This document shows, in pieces, positions 16,588-42,028 of a stretch of DNA of 64,000 nt. The stretch lies in NCBI RefSeq assembly GCF_002305875.1, contig NZ_CP022098.1, positions 5,952,001-6,016,000 of the forward strand, given 5' to 3'. Below the pieces are notes generated by a model. That model did not search any database, had not been told where the DNA came from, and saw nothing but the letters and a program-made list of their open reading frames with translations. Both the position numbers and the translations under genes were made by a program. Numbering within the stretch: the stretch's first letter is position 1; every line of letters begins with the position of its first letter. The DNA is from Cystobacter fuscus (GTDB lineage: Bacteria; Myxococcota; Myxococcia; Myxococcales; Myxococcaceae).

Positions 16588-16590
16588 ATC

Positions 16591-19199: not shown

Positions 19200-19337
19200 C
19201 TAGCGCAGCGCGGCGAGGGCCGCGCCGACCTTGGCCACCGTCACCGACACGGGCGTCGTCACCTCCGGAGCGAAGAGGGCCACGCGGAGCTCCTCGAAGG
19301 CCCACCGCGGCTCCTGCGCCGCCTCCTGGTCACGCAG
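19200..19337 (-). pseudogene. hrpA 3' fragment
   Basis: About 138 bp closely matching the last part of the intact hrpA gene (33628-33765), including its TAG stop and the codons for ELRVAIFAPEV-like residues. The match ends after CTGGTCACGCA, and the sequence then runs into the dispersed repeat beginning CTCCTGGAGGCACACGCC. Confidence 0.85.
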
Positions 19338-19338
19338 A

Positions 19339-19403
19339 CTCCTGGAGGCACACGCCGGCCGCCGCGTTCCCCTCCTCCTGGAAGGACGTAGCAGGGGAAC
19401 GCG
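19339..19403. repeat. partial copy of dispersed non-coding repeat
   Basis: CTCCTGGAGGCACACGCCGG and, further on, CTGGAAGG...GTAGCAGGGGA recur in the same order at 41511-41570. Here the repeat abuts the hrpA 3' fragment; there it lies 50 bp from the hrpA 5' fragment. This copy also contains an inverted pair, GGCCGCCGCGTTCCCCT and AGGGGAACGCGGCGGCC, able to form a long hairpin. Confidence 0.6.
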
Positions 19404-19427
19404 GCGGCCGAACAAAGCGGGTTCCAG

Positions 19428-19508
19428 AGCCCGGTGAGTTTCCGCCAGAGCTTCAAGCGCGCGCTGCATGTCAGTCCGAGCGAGTGGCGCAAGACGTTCG
19501 GGAGTTGA
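19428..19508 (+). pseudogene. AraC family regulator C-terminal remnant
   Basis: A frame ending TGA at 19506-19508 reads VSFRQSFKRALHVSPSEWRK and TFGS, which fits the second HTH and end of AraC/GlxA-type regulators (SxFxRxFKRxxGxSPxxWR). Only 26 codons remain. Upstream is the dispersed repeat. Confidence 0.5.
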
Positions 19509-19642
19509 GGCGGGCGCGCATCGCCGCCCTGGCCCGGCGCATGCCGCGATGCCTCGCCGGAGGAGTGCGAGGCTCCCTCGGATGGGGGGTGCTGCCGGCG
19601 GTGGGACCGTTAGAATTCGGCTTCCACTCAGAGGGCGACATC

Positions 19643-20086
19643 ATGAGCAGCTCGAATCGAAAGACCGCCAGCTTCGGGGTTCCTTGGGAAAAGGCGTATG
19701 GCTACGTGCAGGCCGTACGCTTGAACAACACCATCTACGTCTCCGGCCAGCTTTCGCACACCCCGCAGGGCGAGCTCGTCGCTCCGGCAGCGCTGGGCGC
19801 GGACGGCAAGCCCGCGGACTTCTCGACCATGGAAGCGCAGATGAAGCGCACCTACGAGAATGCCGAGATGCTGCTGGCCGAACTGGGCGCGACCATGGCG
19901 GACGTGGTGGAAGAAACGTTGTTCGTGCTCGACGTTCCGTCTGCCTTCGCAGCCAGTTCGAAGGTGCGGCCGCTGGTCTACAAGCAGGCGGTGCCGCAGG
20001 TTGCCAGCAATCTGATCGGCGTGTCTGCCTTGGCCTTCCCCGAGCAGCTGATTGAGATTGCATTCAGGGCGGAAGTTCAGGGCTGA
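19643..20086 (+). CDS. RidA family protein
   Basis: A 147-residue protein of the RidA/YjgF/Rid superfamily, small trimeric deaminases acting on reactive enamine/imine intermediates. Visible: NNTIYVSGQLSHTPQGELV (conserved substrate-site strand), a helix MKRTYENAEMLLAELGATMA, and the C-terminal VSALAFPEQLIEIAFRAEV. The Arg typical of active archetypal RidA (in the xNPRAxR region) is not evident, so it may belong to a divergent Rid subgroup. It stands alone, followed by a terminator-like hairpin. Confidence 0.88.
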   Translation: MSSSNRKTASFGVPWEKAYGYVQAVRLNNTIYVSGQLSHTPQGELVAPAALGADGKPADFSTMEAQMKRTYENAEMLLAELGATMADVVEETLFVLDVPSAFAASSKVRPLVYKQAVPQVASNLIGVSALAFPEQLIEIAFRAEVQG

Positions 20087-20133
20087 GCCCGGCCGCGCGC
20101 TCGCATCGGCGAGCCGTTGCCGGCTACGCCGAA

Positions 20134-20187
20134 GCGCCCAGCGACGCCTGTGCCAGGCGTGAGGTTCAAGCCCCCTGGGCGTTTTTT
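20134..20187 (+). terminator. Rho-independent terminator-like structure after ridA-type gene
   Basis: CGCCCA (20135-20140) pairs with TGGGCG (20176-20181), enclosing an inner hairpin CGCCTG-TGC-CAGGCG (20145-20159). A run of six T follows at 20182-20187, 48 bp after the stop of the Rid gene. Confidence 0.6.
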
Positions 20188-20212
20188 CCTACCGTACGAC
20201 GTCAACCATCCG

Positions 20213-20404
20213 GGCCGCATGGGCACACGGCGGCCCGGAGGGCCCCCCAGGGGGAGGCAGCAGGGGAGTGGGCGTCTTTGGCCGCGTGACGGCTCGAGGC
20301 TCAACGCCACGAGTGCTGGGGTGGCCCCCGCGCTGCGGCCAGCGGCAGCAGGCCGCGTGGGCAGTGACAGGTGCTCCAGAAGGGCGCGCACGGCGTTGGG
20401 AGCC
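20213..20404. repeat. dispersed repeat, copy related to 21669-21850
   Basis: About 185 bp strongly similar to 21669-21850 in direct orientation; shared blocks include GGGGAGTGGGCGTCTTTGGC, GTGACGGCTCGAGGCTCAA and GCGCACGGCGTTGGG. No reading frame looks genuine. The 20188-20485 interval holds nothing else. Confidence 0.7.
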
Positions 20405-20485
20405 CGGAGGGCCAGCCGACTTGCATGAGCGCACGCCAGCGCCCAGTGCCGGCGGCGTAACCGCTCACCAGAAGGAACTGCAATA

Positions 20486-20731
20486 TTAACTCTCCTCCCA
20501 AAAGGACCGCGGAGTCAAAAAGACCCCTTGTCTCGCCAAAATCCGGTCGGTCTCCAGTAAGGCTTGTAGTTGCTGGTATAGCATCGGCTCGTCAGGGAAT
20601 TTCTCCAAGGCCTCGCGTTCGAGCGCAGGATCTTTGGAAAGGGCATCCAATTTTTCGGCATCTCGGGCCGCTGCAACGCGGACATCATTAACTTTATCAA
20701 ACAACCACAACACGCTTTCTGTGGTTTTCAT
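20486..20731 (-). CDS. small acidic helical protein paired with secreted protein
   Basis: An 81-residue hydrophilic, helix-rich protein (VRVAAARDAEKLDALSKDPA) with no signal peptide. Its ATG overlaps the stop of the upstream secreted-protein gene as ATGA, so the two are coupled. Family unknown. The order, exported protein followed by a small overlapping cytoplasmic partner, is that of effector/immunity pairs, but this remains inference. Base composition is lower in G+C than core genes. Confidence 0.6.
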   Translation of the reverse strand: MKTTESVLWLFDKVNDVRVAAARDAEKLDALSKDPALEREALEKFPDEPMLYQQLQALLETDRILARQGVFLTPRSFWEES

Positions 20732-21387
20732 TTCTCCCCTTTGAATTGCTTATCCAGTGCGAAAGCTATGTCGCTATAAAGCAGCTCAATTTGCGGCAAA
20801 CTCCGAAATGGCTCGCACAGCCCAAACTGCCAGTAAAACACGGCGTCAACCTCAGCGCGTCGCGCCGGAATTGGGTCAACACCTCCAAGCCTGGGAGTGT
20901 GCATGGCTTGGCGAATAAACTCAATCAACTCCAAATTCGCACAGTGAAGAAGGAGGCGCGCAGTGACGCACTCCCGGGGCGTACGAGGAAGGTTGTGTCG
21001 AGTCTCCTCTTGGCCCGAGGACTTGGAGGCGCGCAAGACTCGCTGACGACAGCTCAGCAGTTCAGGAGCGCCAGGACTCGGCCGAGCAGCCAGTAGCTCG
21101 TCAATGTCTGGCGGGGACGCCGGCACAGGCTTCTTGACCGCTTTCGGCTCATCCGCGGCCCAGAGTCCAAGCTCCCTTGTCGGAGGAAGTACTCGCGTAT
21201 TCGGCGAGCGGTCGATGGGCGCGCTCTGCTCGCCCGGCTGTCCCACCATGGGTGCCCCCGCTCCCTCGGGGACGTACCGGGGAACAGGCACTGGCATGGA
21301 CGGAGCTGGAGCTGGAGGTGGAGCCACTGCCTGGGCATGAACCACCGTGGCGACCAGCACGCCGAGCCCCATTACACGAGAGGTCAT
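20728..21387 (-). CDS. secreted protein of unknown function, candidate effector
   Basis: About 219 residues. The start at 21387 was chosen for GGAG 12-15 bp upstream and for the signal peptide MTSRVMGLGVLVATVVHAQA that follows. A Pro-rich linker (VAPPPAPAPSMPVPVPRYVP, residues 20-40) leads to a C-terminal domain with four Cys and WQFGLCEPFRSLPQIELLYS. The last 27 residues have a diverged duplicate encoded at 21492-21575, directly upstream. No known domain was recognised. Confidence 0.65.
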   Translation of the reverse strand: MTSRVMGLGVLVATVVHAQAVAPPPAPAPSMPVPVPRYVPEGAGAPMVGQPGEQSAPIDRSPNTRVLPPTRELGLWAADEPKAVKKPVPASPPDIDELLAARPSPGAPELLSCRQRVLRASKSSGQEETRHNLPRTPRECVTARLLLHCANLELIEFIRQAMHTPRLGGVDPIPARRAEVDAVFYWQFGLCEPFRSLPQIELLYSDIAFALDKQFKGEK

Positions 21388-21491
21388 TTCGCAGACTCCT
21401 ACTCGAAACGTCATGCCCCGTGCTTCTACCCTCGTTTCCATCGTCCAGGCAAGGCCCCCCGGGCGCCTACAGTGCTTTCCCGCCGCAGACT

Positions 21492-21575
21492 TCATTTTGA
21501 GTTCCTGGATTGCCTCTCAAGCACTGCGATTATATCGCTAACGACAAGCTCAATATCTGGCAGGCTCCGGAAGCG
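21492..21575 (-). pseudogene. duplicated C-terminal fragment of the secreted protein
   Basis: The minus strand encodes RFRSLPDIELVVSDIIAVLE and a short tail ending in a stop at 21492, aligning with PFRSLPQIELLYSDIAFALD at the end of the neighbouring secreted protein. An ATG overlaps its stop (ATGA), mirroring the arrangement at 20728-20731, but the gene that followed has decayed. It looks like the remnant of an earlier cassette of the same kind. Confidence 0.6.
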
Positions 21576-21582
21576 TATAGGC

Positions 21583-21852
21583 GGAATGGGGGCGATATGG
21601 AGGGAGAGGGCTGGAGCCGAGGGTGCGATGAGAGCTGTGCGCTGTGCCGGTGGAGACGCGGTGCAGCCCCATGGGGCATACGGCGGCCCAAAGGGCCGCC
21701 CAGGGGAGGCAACAGGGGAGTGGGCGTCTTTGGCAGCGTGACGGCTCGAGGCTCAACCCCAGGAGTGCTGGGGTGGTCCCTGCGCTGCGGCCAGCGGCAT
21801 CAAGCCGCGTGGGCAGTGACAAGTGCTCCAGAATGGCGCGCACGGCGTTGGG
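21583..21852. repeat. dispersed repeat, long copy
   Basis: Non-coding repeat of about 270 bp. The first 60 bp (GAATGGGGGCGATATGGAGG onward) resemble 41400-41460 and, reversed, 33543-33622. The last 180 bp match 20213-20404. It lies immediately upstream of the duplicated C-terminal fragment. Confidence 0.65.
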
Positions 21853-22078
21853 TGCCGTCAGTACGCCAACACCCGGCGCCTGCCTCTACACCAGGCACAG
21901 GTGAAGACATCCAACGCTTTGCGTCCTGCGCAGCAGCTTCGCGAGAGTCTACTCTCGGCATCCGCTCCTTCTTCGGCTCCTTCCCGCGCGCCGCCTCAGG
22001 CGCCATTCGCGGCGCCACAAGGCGCGCTGCAGCAGCGCCAGCGGCACGATCCACACCATGCAGGCCTGCCGCCGACCC

Positions 22079-22696
22079 CTACGCGACCGGCTGCCTCAGG
22101 ATCGTGCGCAGCTTCGCCGGCTCGACCTTGCGGAAGTCGCTGAGGTAGATCTCGTGGTGCTTGCCGGTCATCGCGAGCCCCTCACCCGGGATGAACTCGT
22201 GATGCATCTTCTCGAGCACCGGCGCCTCATCGTCGAACGCGCCGACGTGCAACGTCTGTACGCATCGCCCCTCGTCGAGTGTTTCGAGACGCACCTTGTC
22301 GAGGCTCGCCGGCCGATCTCCGGCGGCGACCTTGGCGACAGCGGCGTCGAACATCTCGGGCGTGATCCAGTCCGGCACCATGATCATCGCGGTCCAGTCC
22401 CACTTGGACTTGTCGCGCGAGGATGTGAACGACGCCATGTCGTCTGACCACCACAGCGCTTCGAGCGGCATCACAACGTAGTCGCGCCCGAGCTGCTGCT
22501 TGCTCGCGAATTTGAGTTTGTACGCGACCGGGTATAGCGCGGAGAGCGCGTCGGTGTACTGCTGTGCGGTGTTCGGGTCTCCGTGACCGTCCACCATGAG
22601 GTACTGCGTCGGTGGAACGTCGACGATCCGGTAGACACCGCGCTTCGCCTGATAGGAATCGAGCGTCTTCTTGAAATCGATCTTCTGCTCGGACAT
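22079..22696 (-). CDS. GyrI-like small-molecule-binding domain protein
   Basis: A 205-residue protein of the GyrI-like/SRPBCC-type ligand-binding group: VDVPPTQYLMVDGHGDPNTA near the N-terminus, ALYPVAYKLKFASKQQLGRD, PLEALWWSDD, and the C-terminal KHHEIYLSDFRKVEPAKLRT. It is stand-alone without an HTH, as in many GyrI-like proteins thought to bind hydrophobic cations or small molecules. It is divergent from nothing obvious; 21853-22078 upstream on the plus strand shows no gene. Confidence 0.85.
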   Translation of the reverse strand: MSEQKIDFKKTLDSYQAKRGVYRIVDVPPTQYLMVDGHGDPNTAQQYTDALSALYPVAYKLKFASKQQLGRDYVVMPLEALWWSDDMASFTSSRDKSKWDWTAMIMVPDWITPEMFDAAVAKVAAGDRPASLDKVRLETLDEGRCVQTLHVGAFDDEAPVLEKMHHEFIPGEGLAMTGKHHEIYLSDFRKVEPAKLRTILRQPVA

Positions 22697-22832
22697 GTCG
22701 GAGCCGCGCGATGCCGACCGCTTGCTCGATGAGGCCGACGAGGTGGAGATCAATCGCTTCATCGCCGGCCTCGAGTAGACGCCGGCCCCAGGCAGGGAAC
22801 GAGGGGTGTGCACCTCATGGGCAGAGCGCCCA

Positions 22833-23582
22833 CTACCTGGGCAGCCCTGAGTAGTCAGCCGGGCCCGCGAGCTGACCGCCGTCGACGGCGAGCTCCGCAC
22901 CGGTGACGAAACTGGAGTCGTCGGAAGCGAAGAAGAGCACGGCGCGCGCGATGTCCTCGGGCTCACCGACCCGGCCGAGGGCGATGCCGCTGGTGTCGAA
23001 CACGACGTCGGCGGTCATGGGCGTCCTGGTCTGCCCGGGGTGCACCGCGTTGACGCGGATCCCGTATGGGCCGAGTTCCAGCGCCGCGGTCTTCGTGAGT
23101 CCGCGGACGCCCCATTTGGCGACGACGTAGCCGGACATCCGCGGGATGCCCTGGAAGCCGCCCACCGAGCCGATGTTGACGATCGAACCCCGCTTGAGCT
23201 TCCGCATTCCCGGTGCGACGGCCTGAACACCGTTGAACACACCGATGAGGTTGACGTCCAGCATCCGCTGCATCCGTGCGAGATCCCAGTCCTTCAGTTC
23301 GCCAGGGTCGGCGATCCCGGCGTTGTTGACGAGGATGTCGACCGTACCGAAGCGCCGTTCGGCGCCGTCGACCACAGCTGACCAGGACTCCGGCGACCTG
23401 ACGTCGAGAGTGGCGGCGGTCACCTTCGGGCCGAGTTCGCCGGCGAGCTCCTCGGCGCTCGCGATGTCGACATCGGCCGCGATCACGTTGGCGCCCTCCG
23501 CGGCGAGGAGGCGCACCGTGGCCGCGCCCATCCCCTTGCCTCCGCCCGTGACGATGGCCGTGCGCCCTTCTACCTTTCCCAT
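22833..23582 (-). CDS. SDR family oxidoreductase
   Basis: A 249-residue classical short-chain dehydrogenase. NAD(P)-binding TGGGKGMGAATVR, NNAG at about residue 88, catalytic Ser in IVNIGSVGG and the Tyr-x3-Lys motif YVVAKWG, and PG after the catalytic loop (VHPGQTRTPM). Asp at the end of beta-2 (AADVD) favours NAD+. Related enzymes act on alcohols or steroids. It is divergent from the MarR gene, with a clear palindromic operator 18 bp upstream of its start. Confidence 0.93.
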   Translation of the reverse strand: MGKVEGRTAIVTGGGKGMGAATVRLLAAEGANVIAADVDIASAEELAGELGPKVTAATLDVRSPESWSAVVDGAERRFGTVDILVNNAGIADPGELKDWDLARMQRMLDVNLIGVFNGVQAVAPGMRKLKRGSIVNIGSVGGFQGIPRMSGYVVAKWGVRGLTKTAALELGPYGIRVNAVHPGQTRTPMTADVVFDTSGIALGRVGEPEDIARAVLFFASDDSSFVTGAELAVDGGQLAGPADYSGLPR

Positions 23583-23599
23583 GGTGTTTCCTTTCTGAT

Positions 23600-23615
23600 A
23601 GGTGATACATCACCT
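23600..23615. promoter_or_regulatory. MarR-type operator upstream of SDR gene
   Basis: AGGTGATACATCACCT is a palindrome with 7-bp arms and a 2-bp centre, located 18 bp from the SDR start and between the divergent SDR and MarR genes. The same site occurs twice more at 24350-24387, supporting it as the binding site of the intervening MarR regulator. Repression of the SDR gene is inferred. Confidence 0.75.
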
Positions 23616-23786
23616 TCCTGTTTATATGCTCAATCACCCAGATTCGCTTGTCAAAAGCGCACGGCGTGGTTCGCGCAGCTCGCGAGGCATCGGCGGCCCG
23701 TCGCCATCGATGGGGCCCGCGTATCGTGAATCTCGAGGCGCTCATGCGCGTGGGCGCGACAACAACAACAGTGGAGGGCAACCTGA

Positions 23787-24263
23787 ATGAAGGAGCTTGA
23801 CGAACGTGAGCGACGCGCATGGTCGGGGCTGCTCAGGATGCAGGACGACCTGCGCCGTCACATCAGCCGACAGCTCATGGAGGACAGCGGGCTCTCCTGG
23901 GCCGATTTCGCGGTCTTGTTCGGGCTCTTCCAACAACCCGACGGCCGGCTCCGGGTGTTCGAACTGCGCGATCTGCTGCGCTGGGAGAAAACGCGGCTCA
24001 TACATCAGGTGTCGCGAATGGCCACCCGCGGCCTCATCGAGCGGCAGGCCTGCCAAGACGATAGCCGCGGGAGCGTGGTCGCTCTCACCGAGGCGGGGCG
24101 CGAGATCATCCAGGCCGCGGCCCCACGCCACCTTCAGGACATCCGGGAGGTGTTCTTCGACGTGCTCACCCCACGGCAACTGGACGTCTTGGCCGATGTG
24201 GCGGAGGCGGTTCTCGACAACATCGACGAGAAGGACGGGCGGGAGTCCGACCTCGAGCAATGA
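23787..24263 (+). CDS. MarR family transcriptional regulator
   Basis: A 158-residue winged-helix regulator: LSWADFAVLFGLFQQPDGRLRVFELRD (helices 2-3), WEKTRLIHQVSRMATRGLIE recognition helix and RQACQDDSRGSVVALTEAGR wing. AGTGGAGGGCAACCTG precedes the ATG. It is divergent from the SDR gene, with an operator between them and an operator pair just downstream (24347-24391). It probably represses the SDR gene and whatever once followed 24391. The ligand is unknown. Confidence 0.92.
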   Translation: MKELDERERRAWSGLLRMQDDLRRHISRQLMEDSGLSWADFAVLFGLFQQPDGRLRVFELRDLLRWEKTRLIHQVSRMATRGLIERQACQDDSRGSVVALTEAGREIIQAAAPRHLQDIREVFFDVLTPRQLDVLADVAEAVLDNIDEKDGRESDLEQ

Positions 24264-24346
24264 CGTCGACGCGCCCCGTCGAGGTGGCGCGCTCACCCTC
24301 TTCCCTGGACTCCGCCCGCATGCTGTCCGAGCGGTCGCGCGTCGCT

Positions 24347-24391
24347 GAGAGGTGATGTATCATCCTGGGCGGGGTGATACATCACCTCTCA
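24347..24391. promoter_or_regulatory. inverted pair of MarR-type operators
   Basis: Two operator half-elements, AGGTGATGTATCATCCT (24350-24366) and GGGTGATACATCACCT (24372-24387), form a larger inverted repeat with GAGAGGTGATGTATCA at one end and TGATACATCACCTCTC at the other. AGGAAGGACAGGAG follows at 24399 like a ribosome-binding site, but no gene of that orientation exists. The regulated gene appears to have been replaced. Confidence 0.7.
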
Positions 24392-24456
24392 GAGCATAGG
24401 AAGGACAGGAGCCCTATTGGGGGTAGAGGGCGGGAGCAGAGGGGGGAGTAGCTCCC

Positions 24457-24480
24457 GGCGTCCCTCTTTCGAGGGACGCC
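24457..24480. terminator. perfect stem-loop downstream of paoC
   Basis: GGCGTCCCTC-TTTC-GAGGGACGCC, a 10-bp perfect stem with a 4-base loop, 50 bp beyond the stop of the minus-strand operon. No T-run follows on either side, so it may be a processing or stability element rather than an intrinsic terminator. Confidence 0.45.
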
Positions 24481-24528
24481 GCGCGCTCGCGCAAAGCCGC
24501 CCGCCAGCGGGAGGCGCGCCTGGGGGGC

Positions 24529-26673
24529 CTACAGCAGGTCCTCGATCCGGATCGGCATCTTGCGCACGCGCTTGCCGGTCGCGTGGTAGATGGCGTTGGC
24601 GATCGCACCGGACGCACCGGCCATCGCCACCTCGCCCAGCCCCTTGGCGCCAATCGTATTGGTCAGCGGGTCGGGCTTGTCGATGAAGGTGACGTCGATG
24701 TCGCCCACGTCGGCGTTCACCGGCACGACGTAGTCGGCGAGGTCACAGTTCAGCCAGCCGCCAAAGCGCGGGTCGACCTCGGTCTCCTCGCGCAGCGTCG
24801 CGCCAATCGCCCAGACGACGCCGCCCAGCACCTGGCTCGTCGCGGTCCTCGGGCTCACGACCCGCCCGCAGTCGACGACGCTGACGACCCGCGGCACACG
24901 CACCCGCCGCGTGCGCGGCTCGACGTGGACCTCGACGAAGTGGGCGATGTAGCTGAACGACGTGAACGACGGATAGTGGGGTCCCCACACCCCGAAGCCG
25001 CCATGCCTGAGCGCGTCCAGCACGCTGGGATCCTGTCCGGGCCCGACTTGCGACGCCTCGATCTCCAGGTACGGGCGACGCACCTTGAGGAGCCGCTGGT
25101 GCAGGTTGCCGGAGAGCTCGCGACCCGCGAACAGTGCGTCCGCCGCCTCGCGCATCTTCGCCGCGGCGGTGGCGGCGGCGGAGACGACGCTCGTCGTGCC
25201 CGACGAGCCGGAGGTGGGGTGCTGCGGCGCGGCACTGGTGTCGCCAATCAAGATCTCCAGCCGGTTGGGATCCAGATCGAGCTCGCGCAGCAGCACCGAG
25301 GCGATCGCGGTGCGCATCCCCTGACCCATCTCGTGGCCGGAGGCGGCGTAGCGCGTCCTGCCGTCGGCGTAGACGCGCAAGGTCACCAGCGAAGGCGTCG
25401 TCATGGACGGATAGGCGCCGCAGCCGATTCCCCAGCCGACCTGTGTTCCGTCGGGCAACGCCATCGACCCCGGCGCCGCGGTCCGCCGCTCCCAGCCGAA
25501 GCGTTGCGCCCCCTCGCGGATGCAGTCGTTCAGGAACCGCGACGACAGCGGCTTGCCATGGAGCGGGTCGATCGTCGTGTCATGCCGCAGACGGAACGCG
25601 ACCGGATCCTCGCCGAGCTTGTAGGCGAGTTCGTCGACCGCGCTCTCGAACGCGAATTGGGAGGGCTGAGGGAACGGCGTGCGCATGTAGCCCGGAGTCT
25701 GCGTGTCGATGCGGATGTTGCTGGCGGTGCCGAGATAGTCGGCGATGCCGTACATCTGCACCGTCGCCTCGTGGTACCGCGGAGGGAAGTTGCCCGAGCG
25801 CGACTGCTGGTGGTCGGCGTCGTACTGGACCGCGACCATCTTGCCCGCGTCCGCGCCAAGCTTGACGTGATGGCGGCTCCTCGGCCGGAAGCCCGCGTTG
25901 TGGAAGATCTGCGCGCGCGGCATGACCAGCTTCACCGGGCGTCCGAGCAGCATCGCGGCGTGCGCGACGAGCGTGGTCTGGAGCTGAAACGCGCCCTTCT
26001 GCCCGAAGCTGCCGCCGACCGAGGGGCTCTTCACCTCGATCAGTGAGCGGTCCAGCCGAAGCATGAGCGCGAGCCCTGTCGTCATCGGGCCCGAGATCTG
26101 TGTCCCTTCCCACACGGTGAGCTTGCCATCCGACCAGTGCGCGGTGGTGGAGAGCATCTCGATCGGGTTGTGGTGCTGCGCCGGGCTCACGTAGGTGTCG
26201 GCGTGCGATGTCGAGGCGGTCTCCATGGCGAGTCGGGCGTTGCCGGCCTCCACACCCGCGAACGGCTCGTGCACCGCGCCGGTGCTGTCGATCAGCGCGC
26301 TGAAGGTCTGGTCGGCATAGGTCGCGCGCACCGCCTCGGCGCCCTCGATCGCGGCCTCCAGCGTCTTGGCGACGACCAGCGCCACGGGCTGGCCCCGATA
26401 GGCGATCTCGCGGATGAGGGTTGGCGGCAGGGGCAGCCCTCCCGAAGGGGGCGGGGGGGGGAAGTCGTCGGCGGTCAGGATGCGTACCACGCCGGGCACG
26501 CGCGCCGCCGCCTCGAGCGACAGCGAGGTGAGCTGGCCCTTGGCGATCCGCGCTGGCACGGTCATCGCGTAGAGCAGGCCCGGCAGGGGCACATCGGCGG
26601 CATAGGCGGTACGGCCCATGACCTTTTCGCGCGCGTCGACGCGGGCGCGGTCAGGGAAGGGGTCGGTGGTCAT
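24529..26673 (-). CDS. paoC: aldehyde oxidoreductase molybdenum-binding subunit (PaoC-like)
   Basis: A 714-residue molybdopterin-binding subunit of a xanthine dehydrogenase-family enzyme, probably periplasmic with its partners. Visible: the N-terminal aldehyde-oxidase a/b hammerhead (GRTAYAADVPLPGLLYAMTV), EGTQISG, SVGGSFGQKG (molybdenum-site loop), GHEMGQGMRT and the catalytic Glu region GAKGLGEVAMAG near the C-terminus. Length matches E. coli PaoC (732). The start at 26673 overlaps the paoB-like stop (TGATG). It oxidises aldehydes to acids using water; electrons pass to the FAD and Fe-S subunits. Confidence 0.88.
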   Translation of the reverse strand: MTTDPFPDRARVDAREKVMGRTAYAADVPLPGLLYAMTVPARIAKGQLTSLSLEAAARVPGVVRILTADDFPPPPPSGGLPLPPTLIREIAYRGQPVALVVAKTLEAAIEGAEAVRATYADQTFSALIDSTGAVHEPFAGVEAGNARLAMETASTSHADTYVSPAQHHNPIEMLSTTAHWSDGKLTVWEGTQISGPMTTGLALMLRLDRSLIEVKSPSVGGSFGQKGAFQLQTTLVAHAAMLLGRPVKLVMPRAQIFHNAGFRPRSRHHVKLGADAGKMVAVQYDADHQQSRSGNFPPRYHEATVQMYGIADYLGTASNIRIDTQTPGYMRTPFPQPSQFAFESAVDELAYKLGEDPVAFRLRHDTTIDPLHGKPLSSRFLNDCIREGAQRFGWERRTAAPGSMALPDGTQVGWGIGCGAYPSMTTPSLVTLRVYADGRTRYAASGHEMGQGMRTAIASVLLRELDLDPNRLEILIGDTSAAPQHPTSGSSGTTSVVSAAATAAAKMREAADALFAGRELSGNLHQRLLKVRRPYLEIEASQVGPGQDPSVLDALRHGGFGVWGPHYPSFTSFSYIAHFVEVHVEPRTRRVRVPRVVSVVDCGRVVSPRTATSQVLGGVVWAIGATLREETEVDPRFGGWLNCDLADYVVPVNADVGDIDVTFIDKPDPLTNTIGAKGLGEVAMAGASGAIANAIYHATGKRVRKMPIRIEDLL

Positions 26674-28309: not shown

Positions 28310-28452
28310 GGCTGCCTTCTCTCCATTTCGTGTCGAGCACGCATGCGTTTCCCGTGAAGTGTTTCATTTGGTTCCGTTTCGGGAAGGTAACGATTCGCGC
28401 GGGTCCCTGTGAATCACGGGATTCCCGACACACTGTCTGGTAGATGGAGACA

Positions 28453-28490
28453 ATGAGCCGTGACCTCGACGCCCTCAAGGTCTTCCTGGC
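28453..28490 (+). pseudogene. LysR family regulator N-terminal remnant
   Basis: MSRDLDALKVFLA, the usual opening of a LysR-type regulator, starts at 28453, divergent from the paoABC-like operon. The frame is broken after about 13 codons where the transposase-like sequence begins, so the regulator has been lost. This explains the conserved 140-bp divergent promoter region 28310-28452. Confidence 0.5.
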
Positions 28491-28660
28491 ATGCCCAAGA
28501 AGGCACGCGTGTCCGCGCACCTGAAGCGTGCCCCGGGTTTTCTCGCGGAGGCCGGGGAAATCACGGCGCTCTTTCATTCCCTGTGGACGTTTGTCGATGT
28601 GCCATGGCAGAAGCCCACCAACAACTTTGAAGCGAGTTTGATGATGTCACCGGGAGCGCG
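28491..28660 (+). mobile_element. transposase fragment
   Basis: The plus strand encodes ITALFHSLWTFVDVPWQKPT followed by NNFEASL. The LWTFxxVxxxxPTNNxxE pattern is the conserved C-terminal catalytic-region end of IS66-like/ISNCY transposases. Only about 50 codons remain, with no terminal inverted repeats seen. It interrupts the LysR remnant and lies 100 bp from the deleted hrpA copy. Confidence 0.5.
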
Positions 28661-28756
28661 GGCCGTACTACCCGCCTACCGGCCGGCGGTGGGCAGTCGG
28701 GCGGCAGCACTTCGAGGACGCCGATGCGCTCGTCTCGGCCGCGCAGCCGCTCGCTT

Positions 28757-32609: not shown

Positions 32610-32618
32610 GAGATAACT

Positions 32619-33528: not shown

Positions 33529-33542
33529 GGCTCACTTCCCTT

Positions 33543-33622
33543 GGGCTCCCGTCAGCTGCCTTCCCACGCCTCTCTGCCCCAACCCCCTGCCCTCAACCGT
33601 TCCCCTATTTCTCTTATGCGTT
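33543..33622. repeat. CT-rich dispersed repeat abutting the hrpA stop
   Basis: GGCTCCCGTC...CCTCTCTGCCCC...CCTGCCCTCAACCG...TTCTCTTATGCG. The same pattern recurs at 37485-37560 and, reversed, at 38961-39037 and 41392-41472. Here it ends 5 bp from the hrpA stop codon. Confidence 0.6.
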
Positions 33623-33627
33623 CGCTC

Positions 33628-36600: not shown

Positions 36601-37338
36601 CTCGCGGATTTCCCGCTCCCCGGGGAGGAACACGAGGACGTCCCCGTCCGGGTCGAGCGAGAGCACGTCCGCCACCGCATCGGCGACGGAGTCGGCGAGC
36701 TCGGCGTCCTCGGGGGGCGGCTCGTAGAGCACGTCCACCGGAAAGGTACGGCCCTCCACCTGGATGACCGGAGCCCCCCCGAAGAACTGCGAGAAGCGCT
36801 CGGTCTCGATGGTGGCCGAGCTCACCACCACCTTGAGATCGGGGCGCCTGGGGAGGATGCGCTTGAGCCACCCCAGCAGGAAGTCGATGGTGAGGCTGCG
36901 CTCGTGGGCCTCGTCGAGCACGATGGTGTCGTAGCGGCTCAGGAGCGGGTCGCTGTGAATCTGCGCGAGCAGGACCCCGTCGGTCATGAACTTCACGGCC
37001 GTCTGCCGGGACGAGCGGTCCTCGAAGCGAATCTGGTAGCCGACGTCCGTGCCCAGCTCCGTGCCGAGCTCGCGTGCCACGCGCGCCGCCACGCTCGTCG
37101 CGGCGATACGCCGGGGCTGGGTGACGCCAATCTGGCGCGGGCGGCCGCGCCCCATGGCGAGCAGGACTTTCGGCAGCTGCGTCGTCTTCCCCGAGCCGGT
37201 GGCCCCCGCGACGATGACGACCTGATGGGCGGTGATGGCCGCGGTGATGTCCTCCACCCGGCTCGAGATGGGGAGCTCGGGGGGGAAGTGCAGGGTGGGC
37301 AAGCCGCCAAGGGTGGGGACGGGTGAGTCGCCGGACAT
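33628..37338 (-). CDS. hrpA: ATP-dependent RNA helicase HrpA
   Basis: A 1236-residue DEAH-box RNA helicase. Motifs: Walker [27 protein letters not shown] (VLDEAHERSLTIDFLLGW), SSATIETERF, and motif VI QRKGRCGRVREG. The HA2/OB-fold region and the long HrpA-specific DUF3418-type C-terminal domain follow, giving the family's usual size near 1250-1300. The start at 37338 (MSGDSPVPT) was preferred; an upstream in-frame ATG exists at 37395. HrpA unwinds RNA and rescues stalled ribosomes. Three partial copies of this gene lie at 19.2, 28.8-29.7 and 41.7-42.0 kb. Confidence 0.95.
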   Translation of the reverse strand: MSGDSPVPTLGGLPTLHFPPELPISSRVEDITAAITAHQVVIVAGATGSGKTTQLPKVLLAMGRGRPRQIGVTQPRRIAATSVAARVARELGTELGTDVGYQIRFEDRSSRQTAVKFMTDGVLLAQIHSDPLLSRYDTIVLDEAHERSLTIDFLLGWLKRILPRRPDLKVVVSSATIETERFSQFFGGAPVIQVEGRTFPVDVLYEPPPEDAELADSVADAVADVLSLDPDGDVLVFLPGEREIREAENALNARELRGTVVQPLYARLSAAEQSRVFATLPERRVILATNVAETSVTIPGIVYVVDTGVARLSRYDPRSGTTRLHIEPVSQASADQRKGRCGRVREGICVRLYDEVSFTTRPAFTDPEIKRTGLAGVILRMKSLGLGDVEDFPFLDPPQPRAIAEGWRVLEELGAIEGKERTLTPLGYQLARFPVDPRIARMILAGAEYGCLDEVLIVAAALNLQDPRERPRELAQKADELHRRFRDEHSDFTGLLKLWAFVREAEGRGTSHLRRVCRDNFLSFLRVREWRDVQRQLEETVRELRLPRKGRGAPARGDVLHQALLTGLLSRIGQWNPEQRHYTGAKQTRFMVHPSSALAKKPPAWVMAFELVETSQLFARTVAKLDPEWLAAAAPHLLKRSYSEPHWSEKSARAVVKENATLFGLQVFKERPVSLASMDPARARLMFLEHALVRGEYRTRGAFQEKNRQVLERVARLRDKARRSELLDEEALLTFFDQCVPEDVTDGASFEAWRRKAEAADPDVLVLSMEDALSHDPGLSPAYYPDAITLHGTSVPVTYTFDPAAEDDGITLSVPLLLLAQWVPGELDWTIPGWQREKLTALLEQLPRAQRKQLGPVPDLIDRLEKELVPFRGPMIPALARAVSRLCGVDVPEESLRADAVAPYLRITLRVLDERGRELARSRDADALLEQYGGHARAALRSAAPTSDWERKGLTAWTFGELPPMVTRRVGGLEIRSYPALVDRGAAVDLVLLETSSAADAATRTGVRRLLMLAARGHVAVSAARMPPPFPSLDGAPPARGQADAFRALVLARSVDDAFKLAPGAPLPRTKAAFEALVREGSPRIEGAARDWAEAVKATASELAATLAALKAASKGPSGAAAVRDIRSQLGHLFPANLIEWIPFVRLLDYPRYLRAAQARLSRAVANPGKDAGKAAPFTPLWETFLARRATVRDQEAARELRWVFEELRVAIFAPEVTTPVSVTVAKVDAALAALR

Positions 37339-37484
37339 GGCTGCATGGCCTATCACTGAAGCGCACGCTCCGCCCCTGACGAATCGTGTGGGCACCTGCG
37401 CGCCCGGCGTTCAGGAGGACGTTCGACTTTGTACCCCAAGGGGACTGCGCGGCCTCGCCACCGGCTTGGCGCACCACTCGGCCG

Positions 37485-37560
37485 GCCCCCGTCCGCGGCC
37501 CTCCTCGACCTCTCTGCACCAGCCCACTCCCTCCACAGGCCTCCCATCCTTCTTAGACGC
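37485..37560. repeat. CT-rich dispersed repeat abutting the stop of the LRR gene
   Basis: CCCCGTCCGCGGCCCTCCTC...CCTCTCTGC...CCCACTCCCTCCACAGG...CCCATCCTTCTTAGACG, the same layout as 33543-33622. It directly adjoins the stop codon of the minus-strand leucine-rich-repeat gene. The stretch 37339-37484 upstream of hrpA shows no gene. Confidence 0.6.
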
Positions 37561-38880
37561 TCAGTACCCCACGTGCAGGCGGCCGGGAGGTAGCGCCGCC
37601 TCCAATCGCTTCACCTCCGCCTCGGGGATGCGGTCCAGCCCCAGTTTGAACTGCTTCAGCCGGGCGAGCGGCGCGAGGCCCCCCGGCAGCGCGGACAGTT
37701 CTCCCTGGAAGAACCCGGCATGCGTCAGCTTCGGCAGCCGCCCGAGCCCGTCCACCAGCACCTGAACCCGCCCCGGCGTCATCTTGTAGAAGCGCCACCA
37801 CCAGAGCTTCTTCAGCCGAGGCAGTCGGGTCAGCACCTCGGGGAAACCCTCCAGCGCCATGGCGTCGAGGTACAGCTCCTCCAGGGACTCCAGCTCTCCG
37901 AACGCGTCCGGGAGCCGGGAGAGGTTGTTGCAGTACCGCAGGCTCAGCTTCTTGAGCGTGGGGAGCCGGCAGAGCTCCACGGGCAGCGTCTTCAGCGGCA
38001 GGCTCTCCAGGCTGAGGCTCTTCAGCGCTTGAAGCTCGCCGATGCGCGGGGAGATTTCCGCGATGTCGTTCGTGTCCAGCGTGAGGCTCTCCAGCCCGGT
38101 GAGGGAGAAGACCTCCTCGGGGATGGCCTTCAGCTTCTTCTGCGCGAGCCCGAGCCGCGTGGCCTTCTCGCCCCGCGCCGCCTTCTCCTTCACGGCGGCG
38201 ATGGCCTTCTCCACGGGGTCGAGCCGGGCGTCCGCCAGCACGGGCTTCCCCGCGCGCAGCTTCGCGAGCAACCCCTTCCGGTCCAGCGTCGAGTCGATGA
38301 CGCCGTCCTCGTCTTCGTCCTCCACGGTGAAGGCGCCCGGTAGGAGCGCCTCGTGCGGCTCCAGCGTCTTTCGAGGCCGTCCCGTCGCGGTGAGCTTGCT
38401 GCCCACGAGCACGTCCACGTCGAGCGCACCATAGACGTGGACGTGGTGGTGCTCCTCGACGAGGGTGCGTGCCGTCAGCCCGCCGCCGACACAGAAGACG
38501 TCGTCCCCAAGCGAGTCGCCGAAGAGGAGTCCCCGAATCCGGGCGTTGCCCGCGATGAAGATGGCGGAGAACGTGGCGACGTTCTCCACCTCCAGGTCTC
38601 CCAGCACCACCAGGAGGGTGTGGTCGGCCGCATGGCCGTCCGAGAGCAACCCCTTCACCCGGACGCTGCCGGAGACGACGAGCGGCCGGGGACCGACGAC
38701 GAGCGAGTCGGCCTCTACACCTCCCTCGTGGAAGAGGACGCCCTGCTCGGTGATGCCCTTCCACCACGAGGCCAGCTTCTCCCGCCACTCGGGCGTCGCC
38801 ACCGCCTCCACGCGCGGCCACACCTCGCGCGCGGAAGTTTCACGTCCCCAGACCCGCACTGCGTCCTGCTTCGCCGACAT
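37561..38880 (-). CDS. bactofilin-like N-domain plus leucine-rich-repeat protein
   Basis: A 439-residue cytoplasmic protein. Residues about 45-170 show short beta-strand repeats with conserved Gly (LVVSGSVRVKGLL, LLVVLGDLEVENVATFSAI, IFIAGNARIRGLL), like bactofilin/polymer-forming beta-helix rungs. A spacer with EDEDEDG follows, then about seven leucine-rich repeats (RLGLAQKKLKAIPEEVFSLT through LPVELCRLPTLKKLSL). No signal peptide. Protein-protein recognition is likely; the partner is unknown. Confidence 0.78.
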   Translation of the reverse strand: MSAKQDAVRVWGRETSAREVWPRVEAVATPEWREKLASWWKGITEQGVLFHEGGVEADSLVVGPRPLVVSGSVRVKGLLSDGHAADHTLLVVLGDLEVENVATFSAIFIAGNARIRGLLFGDSLGDDVFCVGGGLTARTLVEEHHHVHVYGALDVDVLVGSKLTATGRPRKTLEPHEALLPGAFTVEDEDEDGVIDSTLDRKGLLAKLRAGKPVLADARLDPVEKAIAAVKEKAARGEKATRLGLAQKKLKAIPEEVFSLTGLESLTLDTNDIAEISPRIGELQALKSLSLESLPLKTLPVELCRLPTLKKLSLRYCNNLSRLPDAFGELESLEELYLDAMALEGFPEVLTRLPRLKKLWWWRFYKMTPGRVQVLVDGLGRLPKLTHAGFFQGELSALPGGLAPLARLKQFKLGLDRIPEAEVKRLEAALPPGRLHVGY

Positions 38881-38960
38881 GTCCCTGGAGCTCCCTTCCG
38901 GAAGCCATCAGGCCATGGAGTCGCCGCGAGGGCCAGTCAGCGGACGCGGACGACGTGGCG

Positions 38961-39037
38961 CATGAGAGGAATGGGAGCACTGTCGAGGGCAGAGGGTGGG
39001 CGCAGAGAGGCAGAGGAAGGCCGCAGACGGGAGCCCA
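38961..39037. repeat. CT-rich dispersed repeat, reverse orientation
   Basis: Reverse complement of the 33543-33622 type: CATGAGAGGAATGGGAGC...CAGAGGGTGGG...CAGAGAGGCAGAGGAAGG...CGCAGACGGGAGCC. It lies between the LRR gene and the end of the Imm11 gene; this 197-bp gap holds no gene. Confidence 0.6.
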
Positions 39038-39077
39038 CGAGCTCGTACAAATCGTCTGACACCTTCTCTGGGGCCAT

Positions 39078-39680
39078 TCACGCGCGCTGGTCATTCTTTC
39101 CTCCACTGGGGTCCGTCACACGCTCGAACGACACTCCAAGGTTCCCTACCCCTTCGAGTGCGTTCTTGATGTCCTCTGAAACGACGAACGCGATCTTGAA
39201 CTTCTTCAGCCGAAAGACATGCGCGCCCTCGGTCTTCGAGGGGTCGATTCGCAGGCCGTAGATCCAGCGGTACTCCCCTTCATAGTCAGGGGAGGGGTCG
39301 TCCTCGTCATAGTGGTGAACCTCCCGGCACCGTGCCTCGTCTATGGCATCAATCACCTTGGTCGCATTGACAACGATGTACTGTTCGGGCTCCCCGGCGA
39401 TAATCATCGGGATCAACTGCACATCACTAGATGCAAAGGCCCTGAAGACGTTTGCGACCGCCTCATTGACGATGGGGGCTTGCTCTATCCCAGAAAGTAC
39501 GAACGCGCGCCTCTCGCCTTGGTGCGCAACCTCGGCCTTCATAGGCCCGAGGTCTGGAAGAATGCGACCGTCTGCGAACATCCAAGGCTCGTCGAAGGTG
39601 CCCCCGGTCGCTGGTCCTGGCGTTTTAACCACCCATTGAGGCACGTTAGCTATTCCTACCCAATAGAAGTGACGCCCCAT
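39078..39680 (-). CDS. Imm11 (DUF1629-like) immunity protein
   Basis: A 200-residue cytoplasmic protein of the Imm11 family. Characteristic parts: MGRHFYWVG opening with WMFADGRIL, a central AVANVFRAFASSDVQLIPM strand-helix and the C-terminal YGLRIDPSK...KIAFVVSEDIKNALE. It starts 10 bp after the stop of the AHH-type lipoprotein toxin and is therefore its predicted immunity protein. A paralogous domain is fused to SUFU at 45813-47084. Confidence 0.85.
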   Translation of the reverse strand: MGRHFYWVGIANVPQWVVKTPGPATGGTFDEPWMFADGRILPDLGPMKAEVAHQGERRAFVLSGIEQAPIVNEAVANVFRAFASSDVQLIPMIIAGEPEQYIVVNATKVIDAIDEARCREVHHYDEDDPSPDYEGEYRWIYGLRIDPSKTEGAHVFRLKKFKIAFVVSEDIKNALEGVGNLGVSFERVTDPSGGKNDQRA

Positions 39681-39690
39681 GCTGCCTCTC

Positions 39691-40980
39691 CTACTTCACA
39701 ATTAGACTGCGCAACTCGGATCCCTGCGTCAGAAGCTCATTGGCAATCTTGGCTAGTTCAGTCGTCAAACTGGACCGACACGTCTCCGTGGACCGACAGC
39801 GAGACACCGCTCGCTCCAGACGAAGCACCACCCTCTCGTGGTATTGCTCTGGATGTGGTCCTTCGTGCCCATCGAGCCGCACTTTGTTTGCAACATCTTC
39901 GAGGCTCATCCCTGCCTTCTTGAATACGTCCTCGCATCTCGGTGTCCAAGGACCACCGGTCACATCGGAAATGGGGTTCTTGTTCGTGCAGATGTGGTGA
40001 ACAGGGCCCACGGCGTCGCCCGGATACCGCCCCTCTCCGTACATCGCAAGAGCCGCAGCCGCCCCCGGAGCCAGCGCCACGTTGAGCACGCCAGCGGCAG
40101 GCAACGAGATTGAGCCCACCCCACCATTCAACGCCGCCGTGAGCTGAAAGCCGCCCTCGGCCTGCGCGCGGATGGCGGCCTGGGAGAAGCCGGGGAGCTT
40201 GGGGCCTTGGGCCGCCATCGCGCTCTTTCCGCCAAGGGCCGCAGTGACGAGCAGCACCAGGACGCGCGTGCCGTTCGTTCCCAACACGCGCCCGAACCGG
40301 TGCCCGATGTCCTGCAACTCGACGATGCTCGTCGCCTTCTCTGAGTCTTCCCACAGCCGAACGAACCCTCGGCCCATCTCCCAGACCGGAATCACACCGA
40401 GGTAGGCCACCATGGCCGCCGTCAACGCGACCGCGATAACCTTGGTGACGGGTTCGGGCAGGGTCATCGTGAGCAGCACGGTCAGCGCGGCCGAGGTCAA
40501 CATCGCTTTGAGCGCTACCGGGTTCAGCATCTTGCCGACCTCCACCTCGACGCTCTCCCAGACGGTATCAAGCGCGAAGGACAAGGCCATGAGCGTCCGG
40601 TCCTTCCGCCCGAACGGCAACCCCGTTCCACCTACCAGGGTCAGGCAGTCGTCCGCGTCGGGGCAGATGCGCGCGTACAACGACTCAGGCGAAGTCCCCG
40701 AGCCCGAATCAGCGAGGCCCTTCGAGGACGCGAGGAGAGTCCTGGACCGCACCCACCCGCGCTGGTCCGCCTCGTCCAACTCGCGGAACGCCACGTCCAG
40801 CCGCATGTCGAGGACGAGCTGCGCGAGGGCCGCCTTGAACTCGTCCTCAGTCACCTCGACAGGCTCGACATCGACCGACTCGTAGGTGACTCGCTGACCG
40901 TTCTCAACGTCGATATGGACGACGCGGGTGGTCGCACACCCCGCCGCCAGCAGTAGACCCACTAATCCGACTAGTCTCAT
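39691..40980 (-). CDS. Sit-like lipoprotein toxin with C-terminal AHH-type nuclease motif
   Basis: A 429-residue lipoprotein: signal peptide MRLVGLVGLLLAAGC with a good lipobox. Residues 15-160 form a Sit-type N-domain, followed by two adjacent hydrophobic segments (ALTVLLTMTLPEPVTKVIAV and following), seen in both AHH toxins here. The C-terminal domain has VHHICTNKN, GGPWTPRCEDVFKKAGMS and HEGPHPEQYH, the spaced His pattern of AHH/HNH-superfamily nucleases. In Myxococcus xanthus, SitA lipoproteins of this plan are delivered to siblings by TraA/TraB outer-membrane exchange. Family assignment is by pattern, delivery is inferred. Confidence 0.78.
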   Translation of the reverse strand: MRLVGLVGLLLAAGCATTRVVHIDVENGQRVTYESVDVEPVEVTEDEFKAALAQLVLDMRLDVAFRELDEADQRGWVRSRTLLASSKGLADSGSGTSPESLYARICPDADDCLTLVGGTGLPFGRKDRTLMALSFALDTVWESVEVEVGKMLNPVALKAMLTSAALTVLLTMTLPEPVTKVIAVALTAAMVAYLGVIPVWEMGRGFVRLWEDSEKATSIVELQDIGHRFGRVLGTNGTRVLVLLVTAALGGKSAMAAQGPKLPGFSQAAIRAQAEGGFQLTAALNGGVGSISLPAAGVLNVALAPGAAAALAMYGEGRYPGDAVGPVHHICTNKNPISDVTGGPWTPRCEDVFKKAGMSLEDVANKVRLDGHEGPHPEQYHERVVLRLERAVSRCRSTETCRSSLTTELAKIANELLTQGSELRSLIVK

Positions 40981-41260
40981 AGAGTCCCCCCAGATGCGAA
41001 ATCCAAGTAAAAATGGATTTAACATCGTGACCCCGGAGTCTGACAGCTTCAAGGGGGCCTTGAGTTTCTAGTCTACTGCACTGCACCTGCCTTCTCGGTC
41101 TTCCTTCTATAGGAGAGCCGCGAGGCGCTGCTGGACGACGGCCGTCGTCGCAGGACTGTGCGCCTCGTCCTCTAGGCGACCTCCCCAGGGAGTGGATGCC
41201 CTCTACCCCTCCTGGGAAGTTGGCCGGACTATGTGACCTGGCCTACCCATCCGGTCTTTC

Positions 41261-41400
41261 CTGCTTCTTGTCCTGGTGGCCTCGTCGGGCGCGCAGGCCG
41301 GGGACAAGTACGCCGAGCCGTTGGTGCGCCCCATCATGCGGTCCGAACACAGAAGAACGACGCCCTCACCGAAGAGAACGAGCGCTACCGCAAGCGCTAG
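41261..41400 (+). pseudogene. possible remnant of a small exported protein
   Basis: One frame reads LLLVLVASSGAQAGDKYAEP like a signal peptide and mature start, and, after a shift of one base near 41350, [16 protein letters not shown] ending in a stop at 41398. Together they would resemble a short exported coiled-coil protein with a frameshift. The rest of 40981-41391 holds no gene, though it must include the promoter of the AHH toxin at its left end. Confidence 0.25.
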
Positions 41401-41650
41401 GAGGGATGGGGGCCGTGTAGAGGGAGAGGGAAGGAGGCGAGGGGCCGAGGAGGGCCGCGGACGGGAGCCCCCGGGCTGTGAGCCAGGGCGGTGCGCAGAG
41501 CGAACAGCCTCCTGGAGGCACACGCCGGCCCAAGCGGCCCCTGCTGCTGGAAGGGAGGTAGCAGGGGAGTGGGCTTGTGGGGCAGCGCGACGGCATGGGG
41601 CTCAACACCACGCCACCGCCCTCGTCGCTTGAGCAGTGAGGCGCGCCAAG
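41392..41650. repeat. dispersed non-coding repeat, long copy
   Basis: Combines the reversed CT-rich part (41392-41472, ending GCCGCGGACGGGAGCCC) with the second part (CTCCTGGAGGCACACGCCGG at 41511, GTAGCAGGGGAGTGGGC at 41555 and the CGACGGC...GGCTCAACACCA block). The order parallels 21583-21852. It ends about 50 bp from the hrpA 5' fragment. Confidence 0.65.
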
Positions 41651-41698
41651 CCCCCGGAAAAAATGTGCGCGCCTCCGAGGCCGATGCACGACACCAGC

Positions 41699-41996
41699 GT
41701 GCCCAGCTCCGTGCCGAGCTCGCGTGCCACGCGCGCCGCCACGCTCGTCGCGGCGATACGCCGGGGCTGGGTTGACGCCAATCTGGCGCGGGCGGCCGCG
41801 CCCCATGGCGAGCAGGACTTTCGGCAGCTGCGTCGTCTTCCCCGAGCCGGTGGCCCCCGCGACGATGACGACCTGATGGGCGGTGATGGCCGCGGTGATG
41901 TCCTCCACCCGGCTCGAGATGGGGAGCTCGGGGGGGAAGTGCAGGGTGGGCAGGCCGCCGGGGGTGGGGACGGGTGATTCGCCGGACATGGCAGCA
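41699..41996 (-). pseudogene. hrpA 5' fragment
   Basis: About 300 bp matching the first part of intact hrpA (37045-37341), encoding [18 protein letters not shown] to the Walker A motif and on to about residue 98. An extra T at GGGCTGGGTTGACG (41764-41777 region) breaks the frame. The match stops at CGTGCCCAGCTCCGTGCC. Upstream similarity ends near 42008, beside a tRNA 3' fragment. Confidence 0.88.
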
Positions 41997-42028
41997 TGGC
42001 CTGGCATTGATTCTGGCCCCGATTGAAG

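Follow-up and report, generated by a model that had tools for sequence, protein, structure and literature searches.

The gene hrpA, which encodes an RNA helicase, occurs as one intact and three partial copies in a stretch of the Cystobacter fuscus genome. The window, that is the whole 64,000-nucleotide stretch analysed, corresponds to G000:C1:5952001-6016000, where G000 is the C. fuscus genome, a single contig of 12,349,744 bases. The hrpA fragments are probably the debris of a relocating and horizontally shared gene, moved by a rolling-circle element of the IS91/ISCR type. Within the Myxococcaceae, hrpA tends to be present once and complete, but seldom at a shared location. It is better seen as a passenger that changes locus while one complete copy is usually retained and old copies decay. 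A first-pass annotation of the window had taken hrpA for a recombination scaffold; that scaffold is replaced by a mobile gene, and homologous recombination is a secondary actor. The loci of hrpA differ between genomes, its divergence between genera is compressed, partial copies recur, one block of transposase and hrpA is co-duplicated, and one filled site has an empty counterpart. We infer that rolling-circle transposition made the copies in the window, together with a route between cells and a reason for which a copy is kept.

Self-BLAST finds the intact gene and the three partial copies at the positions given by the first-pass annotation, all on the minus strand as it had described. Copy A (33628..37338, minus strand; open reading frame (ORF) 33628-37395) is intact and encodes an HrpA RNA helicase with a DUF3418 domain. 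It scores 1373 bits against the HrpA equivalog TIGR01967 (cut-off 722.75) and 525.8 bits against PF11898, the DUF3418 model (cut-off 25). Against the PRK11131 HrpA model it reaches 1200 bits, below the cut-off of 1400. The stretch homologous to other hrpA loci runs from about 33619 to 37419, and the nearest named matches are Archangium, Myxococcus, Corallococcus, Pyxidicoccus and Hyalangium records. Copy B (28748..29721, minus strand) has an internal deletion of about 2.7 kb that joins the 3' end of the gene to nucleotides 15-311. Positions 28748-29424 match the 3' end of A at 96.0% identity and positions 29425-29721 match its 5' end at 96.6%. The 3' part is closest to G032 (97.5%), a member of g1, the genus of G000. 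The 5' part is closest to G003 (98.65%; own copy A 96.6%), a member of g3; here g3, g6, g7, g8 and g19 are codes for other genera. Copy C (19194..19336, minus strand), left of a RidA-like gene, retains the final ~140 bp of hrpA at 93.0% identity to the 3' end of A. Over the 137 bp compared, the genome's own copy A ranks only 41st of 57 in similarity to it. Copy D (41698..42010, minus strand) lies at the right edge of an accessory island and retains the first 291 bp of the gene together with the 21 bp that precede its start, and is 97.1% identical to A. Matches of 143-678 bp at 93-97% identity between copies are far beyond chance. The first-pass annotation had named assembly error as a possible source of the copies. 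This is unlikely because the genome is one contig, the copies carry copy-specific substitutions and partial copies occur in other genomes.

DUF3418, the C-terminal domain of HrpA, was found in 58 of 96 family genomes, representing 7 of 26 genera. Nearly full-length hrpA is present in 57 of the 96, nine of which have a contig starting at nucleotides 32-48 of the gene; in the 58th genome with DUF3418, G027, hrpA is in pieces. The G002 gene has a frame change near its 3' end, and in G041 contig ends may divide a second copy. We compared up to 8 kb on each side of the gene; upstream sequence is missing for nine of the 57 genomes and limited to 150 bp for G031. Upstream flanks are alike over at least 1 kb in 20 of 1128 genome pairs, 8 of them between genera. 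Downstream, the figure is 16 of 1596, none between genera. Comparison with relatives, proposed in the first-pass annotation for the flanks, thus shows flanks that are rarely common and a locus that itself differs. Contiguous homology mostly stops at scattered points 30-150 bp upstream and 1-157 bp downstream. The exceptions are related pairs and four g6 genomes with ~0.6 kb downstream in common. Three g6 genomes (G016, G018 and G028) match G057 or G058 of g19 over 0.5-0.65 kb upstream, perhaps an older address of hrpA. One pair of fixed ends common to the hrpA loci, as of a transposon, cassette or integrative element, was not found; fixed transposon ends around all loci were rejected because flank homology stops at many points. 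In five other genomes, the distance between hrpA and scpAB (Pfam gives ScpA and ScpB) on one contig is 0.16 to 5.4 Mb.

Some contig ends touch the gene itself. Nine draft contigs begin at hrpA nucleotides 32-48 (L010, L014, L015, L016, L018, L021, L025, L037 and L040). A second 5' boundary of hrpA at this point was considered and rejected. In G061 and G065 another contig holds the gene start, with an overlap of 3-20 bp, so the nine contig starts look like assembly breaks. The breaks suggest sequencing dropout at the gene start. In G067 (L011 10001), hrpA homology begins only at nucleotide 37 inside a contig, with transposase-like sequence close upstream, and the start of the gene looks rearranged. 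A record titled Comamonas sp. KCTC 72670 (L031) has, on a 969-kb contig, an hrpA 92% identical to the query protein; it is perhaps mislabelled.

Comparison with two close genomes identifies sites where hrpA is present in one species and absent from G000. In G032, whose scpAB region diverges from that of G000 by 2.6%, hrpA lies at C1:1466642-1470358. Blocks on both sides of this region are collinear with G000 3242362-3252002 at 97-99% identity, and the site between them measures 1.7 kb in G000 versus 21 kb in G032. No hrpA match beyond chance was found in G000 3242362-3252002. In G033, hrpA (C27:7461-11170) is flanked by two direct 63-bp copies (96.8% identical) of an IS91/ISCR-type element end. 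The corresponding site of G000, near 3.2465 Mb, contains a single 63-bp copy and no hrpA. Flanking sequence there is 96-98% identical to that in G033, over 377 bp to the left and over 73 bp plus additional blocks to the right, and the hrpA of G000 sits 2.7 Mb away. This pair of filled and empty sites raised our confidence in the mobile-gene account only slightly. Since two of the three species have hrpA in this neighbourhood, G000 is the likelier mover. Loss at the old G000 locus and gain elsewhere need not be one event.

Divergence of hrpA was compared with that of scpAB. In 1072 of 1160 inter-genus pairs, hrpA divergence is less than half of scpAB divergence; for G032-G056 the values are 2.2% and 20.5%. 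Synonymous divergence (dS) was computed for 17 chosen pairs, 11 of them inter-genus, and for six chosen g19 species. Nine of the 11 inter-genus pairs have an hrpA dS of 0.047-0.105 and an scpA dS of 0.37-0.56. Among close pairs (scpAB divergence <4.5%), hrpA is the more diverged in 58 of 67, as in G065-G075 (scpAB 0.8%, hrpA 5.0%). Median hrpA dS is 0.19-0.35 among the six g19 genomes and 0.10-0.16 for g6 pairs. Between g1 and g3, g7 or other g19 genomes it is 0.055-0.121, and low along the entire gene. Hence, hrpA has no low ceiling on synonymous change, as the values within g19 demonstrate. Inner branches of the hrpA tree are short and end branches long, and the tree is not random for genus. 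We read this as spread of hrpA through the genera well after their split, then partly vertical descent with further exchange. The intact gene of G004 is a mosaic, closest to g1 over nucleotides 1-1060 and to its own genus, g3, over the remainder. Thus, hrpA exchange and homologous recombination occur.

A search for Y2 transposases identified 5, 10 and 6 places in G000, G006 and G007, respectively. In G006, two of these ten places end at a distance of 668 bp from an hrpA start, one at a 5' piece and the other at the intact gene. Both belong to a duplicate (10917996-10920697 and 10927993-10930700; 2708 bp, 99.74% identity) that contains most of the transposase and hrpA nucleotides 1-1429, with the ori-type end on the side opposite hrpA. 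The remainder of the element, including its conserved end, is also duplicated (538 bp, 99.6%). One element copy is broken by a 3.3-kb insert (G006:C1:10924673-10927992, L126) with a flanking 7-bp repeat; by eye, the insert encodes integrase-like and ATPase-like proteins. The transposase exceeds the cut-offs of PF04986 (Y2; 100.6 versus 20.9 bits) and PF14319 (IS91 zinc domain; 63.2 versus 26.3). It falls under those of the curated NCBIfam models NF033538 (IS91; 103.5 versus 125) and NF052416 (ISCR clade Ia; 300.2 versus 925). Hence, we class it as related to IS91/ISCR, at no finer level than the family. The oriIS-type 3' end is conserved at six places in G006; the outer flanks mostly differ and two places form a tandem pair. 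One account places oriIS downstream of the transposase and describes it as sufficient for one-ended transposition (PMC13023784), and another describes oriIS, terIS and a presumed rolling circle (PMC13393415). The G006 block, which runs from the far element end to inside the neighbouring gene, would be the footprint expected of one-ended transposition.

Sequence of this type recurs beside hrpA. Of 48 genomes, 8 have it no more than 150 bp upstream of the gene, and 3 of 57 have it within the same distance downstream. In the control, drawn from 20 stretches of 20 kb in G000, G002, G006 and G007, it occurs in 3 of 1600 windows. Within 600 bp upstream, the 10 matches from this density search point in one direction, ori-type end away from hrpA; several of them share one ancestral fossil. 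A more sensitive search adds the match close upstream in G067, in the opposite direction to the other ten. At the fossil junction, transposase codon 252 falls at hrpA position -63 in nine genomes, and three more fit the register (2 in g1, 1 in g3, 4 in g6 and 5 in g19). The match is strongest in G053 (64 codons, 86%, E 5e-35) and weak alone in G028, G032, G029 and G004 (E 0.009-0.6). G004 is the only g3 case, and its flank matches that of G033 over 97 bp. Of 16 partial hrpA pieces, six have IS91/ISCR-type sequence within 60 bp and four within 2 kb; such sequence also lies within 60 bp of two of the three intact copies examined. Several hrpA breakpoints coincide with it, a feature that was not visible to the first-pass annotation.

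The window itself contains six repeats of one dispersed family, four at hrpA ends and two near the RidA-like gene. Those at hrpA ends are all within 60 bp. Upstream of copy A is a remnant at 37430..37563 (plus, taken as the strand of the lost transposase) with an ori-like end at 37560, and beside the 3' end of A is a repeat at 33520..33620 (plus strand). A 3'-end remnant (41393..41640, minus strand) lies 57 bp from the break of D, and a repeat at 19335..19398 (minus strand) lies 2 bp from the break of C. The two near RidA, at 21567..22005 (ori-like end at 21573) and 20214..20404, both on the minus strand, encode the transposase C-terminus. Recognisable transposase sequence spans 21716-22005 (71% nucleotide identity, E 2e-29); the other pieces are shorter.

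Besides G000, partial copies are present in at least G002 (46 bp), G004 (three), G005, G006, G007 (three places), G033, G073 (two) and G077. The initial scan behind this list scored three candidates per genome, and its count is a lower bound. A recheck covered 20 of the 56 other genomes with 30 candidates each; among its ten g6 and g19 genomes, only G077 has a partial copy. At least nine partial copies are no farther than ~25 kb from the intact gene, and they share its strand without exception. Upstream, all four are 5' pieces; of the five downstream, four are 3' pieces and the fifth, B, is mixed. Compared with the intact gene of the same genome, the 5' pieces of G004 and G006 reach 99.78% and 99.51% identity and hence look recent.

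The best account of these data is as follows. An IS91/ISCR-type element beside hrpA would copy itself and a variable length of adjacent DNA by one-ended transposition. New sites would thereby receive hrpA, whole or in part. Where each side of the gene has a direct copy of the element end, as in G033, hrpA could also be lost again. Complete copies may pass between species and recombine with residents, and insertions and deletions extending to the gene edges would wear down surplus copies.

We weighed this account against the model of the first-pass annotation, in which hrpA is a scaffold for homologous recombination. In such a scheme, foreign DNA would enter through hrpA homology on one side and be joined illegitimately on the other, with a partial hrpA left next to the incoming cargo. 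As that model would have it, the partial copies nearby lie on the strand of the intact gene, and most of them match it in polarity. The G004 gene is a mosaic beside a nearly identical 5' fragment, and B joins a 5' part nearest g3 to a 3' part nearest g1. Recombination between hrpA copies therefore stands as a process, through the mosaic gene of G004, while the loci and the element evidence speak against it as the main driver. Loci megabases apart, element sequence at breakpoints and the co-duplicated transposase block of G006 are unexplained by a scaffold, and the flanking genes are not conserved cassettes. Hence, we consider this model unlikely. Ordinary turnover of a hypervariable accessory region, with insertion-sequence remnants, repeat-driven duplications, inversions and deletions and the transposase as a bystander, would fit an island site whose length in four related genomes is 0.14, 7.7, 15.5 and 28 kb. 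Modules other than hrpA, for instance RidA-LRR in G033, likewise have repeats of the family at their sides, and a 178-bp ADH piece is duplicated nearby. Turnover of this kind does not account for compressed hrpA divergence across genera, for the G006 link between transposase and hrpA or for four window repeats so close to hrpA ends, and we give it little credence. Slow synonymous evolution of hrpA under strong constraint, with vertical inheritance and a change of neighbourhood only, is very improbable. The tree, which groups mostly by genus, favours it. It is contradicted by dS medians that are higher within g19 than between genera, for which a low synonymous rate was rejected, by the excess divergence of hrpA in G065-G075 and by dead transposase sequence upstream that is nearly the same in different genera.

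Several observations count against a mobile hrpA carried by an IS91/ISCR-type element. The link between element and gene is not universal. At the threshold of the density search, 36 of 57 genomes have no match within 8 kb on either side (8 of these lack upstream sequence, and a looser search adds the fossil in some), and the controls were drawn from four genomes of two genera. Six of the 16 partial pieces, including both of B, have no such sequence within 2 kb, and no intact element was found in the window. The target of IS91 is GAAC or CAAG beside oriIS; by eye, CAAG is present at only one of the six G006 ends. Vertical descent would also give a common fossil junction. The hrpA tree mostly groups by genus, with 9 genus changes versus 6 for scpAB, and two of the 11 inter-genus pairs (with G060 and G001) have an hrpA dS of 0.23-0.24. 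The core comparison is based on one locus, scpAB. The empty G000 site is equally explained by loss through recombination between end copies. Carriage by plasmids or phages was rejected: near-identity searches returned no match in phages and a single 13% match among plasmid records, and neither yielded a related full hrpA copy.

The copies in the window sit in an accessory island (14133..42031), as the first-pass annotation had supposed, between two core genes. The gene for an AI-2E-type transporter ends at 14132 and core amidase homology starts at 42032. We label the transporter gene perM; perM, xerC and trpS are labels given here, for which Pfam gives AI-2E transporter, phage-integrase family and class I tRNA synthetase. 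The interval is 28 kb in G000, 139 bp in G034, 7.7 kb in G032 and 15.5 kb in G033, and this difference among three congeners and G000 identifies the site as variable. Copy D abuts the right edge. Pfam bears out the earlier RidA, SDR, FG-GAP, LRR, AHH and Imm11 calls for the cargo and also matches molybdenum-cofactor-binding (PaoC-like) and 2Fe-2S (PaoA-like) subunits. For the DPBB call at 32619-33479, Pfam gives no match at E 0.01. No tRNA gene was found in the window; an RNA family or tRNA attachment site was rejected, with none over threshold. Known anti-phage defence proteins gave only weak PADLOC matches (up to 17.4 bits), and a defence identity was rejected on these scores.

Cargo had been described as cassettes bounded by hrpA, a description that the neighbours do not bear out. 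The RidA-like gene (19484..20086, plus strand; PF01042) adjoins intact hrpA in G032, where it is just upstream. It also adjoins hrpA remnants, namely copy C in the window, a remnant on G004 contig 23 and one near 142 kb in G007. In G004 and G007, intact hrpA is located away from the remnant beside RidA. RidA and hrpA are thus neighbours of long standing. An LRR protein gene (37561..38880, minus strand) is contiguous with RidA in G033. Hence, window positions 20116-37516, with B and A, sit between genes that adjoin there. We surveyed 540 flanking ORFs up to 6 kb on each side of hrpA in 57 genomes, using a simple ORF rule. No family occurs in more than 8 of the 57, so a constant partner gene was rejected; the commonest family is, by eye, a LysR-type regulator. 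Imm11 relatives lie near hrpA in G033, G036, G038 and G076, AHH/SitA-type relatives in G004, G007 and G077, and an ankyrin gene in G006 and G032.

Other features of the window deserve mention. Two oppositely oriented SitA5-family AHH toxin genes with Imm11 immunity genes (39078-41052, minus strand; 44467-47084, plus strand) flank copy D and the amidase gene. Part of the second Imm11 protein is a SUFU domain, and the next gene after it encodes TsiV. A small gene of no assigned family and an ankyrin gene occupy 15894-17227. The pair recurs near hrpA in G006 and G032, with a 72% copy at the island site in G032, and is possibly a toxin-immunity pair. The 178-bp internal piece of an ADH-like gene is found at 15671-15848 and 18666-18843, 3 kb apart and 99% identical. 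An FG-GAP protein gene (30634-31761) contains 168-bp direct repeats. A pseudouridine-synthase gene (53540-54694) has a long 45-bp tandem repeat in its 3' part, where alignments to relatives break.

A large and common RNA helicase gene seems to owe its mobility across a bacterial family to ISCR-type capture. This bears on how a core genome is defined and on how single-copy genes change address. Partial copies of differing age make the process readable. Among the papers listed by a literature search, none was, judged by title, on hrpA mobility in myxobacteria. The mobility of hrpA also bears on why ribosome-rescue capacity would undergo such exchange. HrpA rescues stalled ribosomes in E. coli, according to a review (PMC13159725, citing Campbell et al. 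2025). Our guess is that exchange of hrpA protects myxobacteria against ribosome-stalling compounds. It is conceivable, though we would not favour it, that an ISCR-like element has long been the partner of hrpA in the Myxococcaceae. The helicase gene would then give communal protection against antibiotics or toxins by which rival myxobacteria stall ribosomes. A gene of housekeeping type would be mobile throughout the family, without a set locus, leaving one working copy and remnants per genome.

Three known systems invite comparison. Sit polymorphic toxin loci of myxobacteria, as covered in part of one source (PMC5562445), resemble the SitA5-family toxin genes in and beside the island; in contrast, toxin or immunity relatives occur near hrpA in only some genomes. 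Xenologous gene displacement keeps the locus. As in that process, a foreign hrpA seems to replace the resident, and close species carry diverged copies, but the new copy is often elsewhere. ISCR-type gene capture is familiar mainly from resistance genes. Like ISCR and IS91 elements, the one described here has a transposase with Y2 and IS91 zinc domains, and a co-duplicated block extends from its conserved 3' end into the neighbouring gene. In contrast, the passenger is an RNA helicase gene near-universal in myxobacteria rather than a resistance gene, several genera are involved, the elements are mostly decayed and the IS91-type target is inconsistent.

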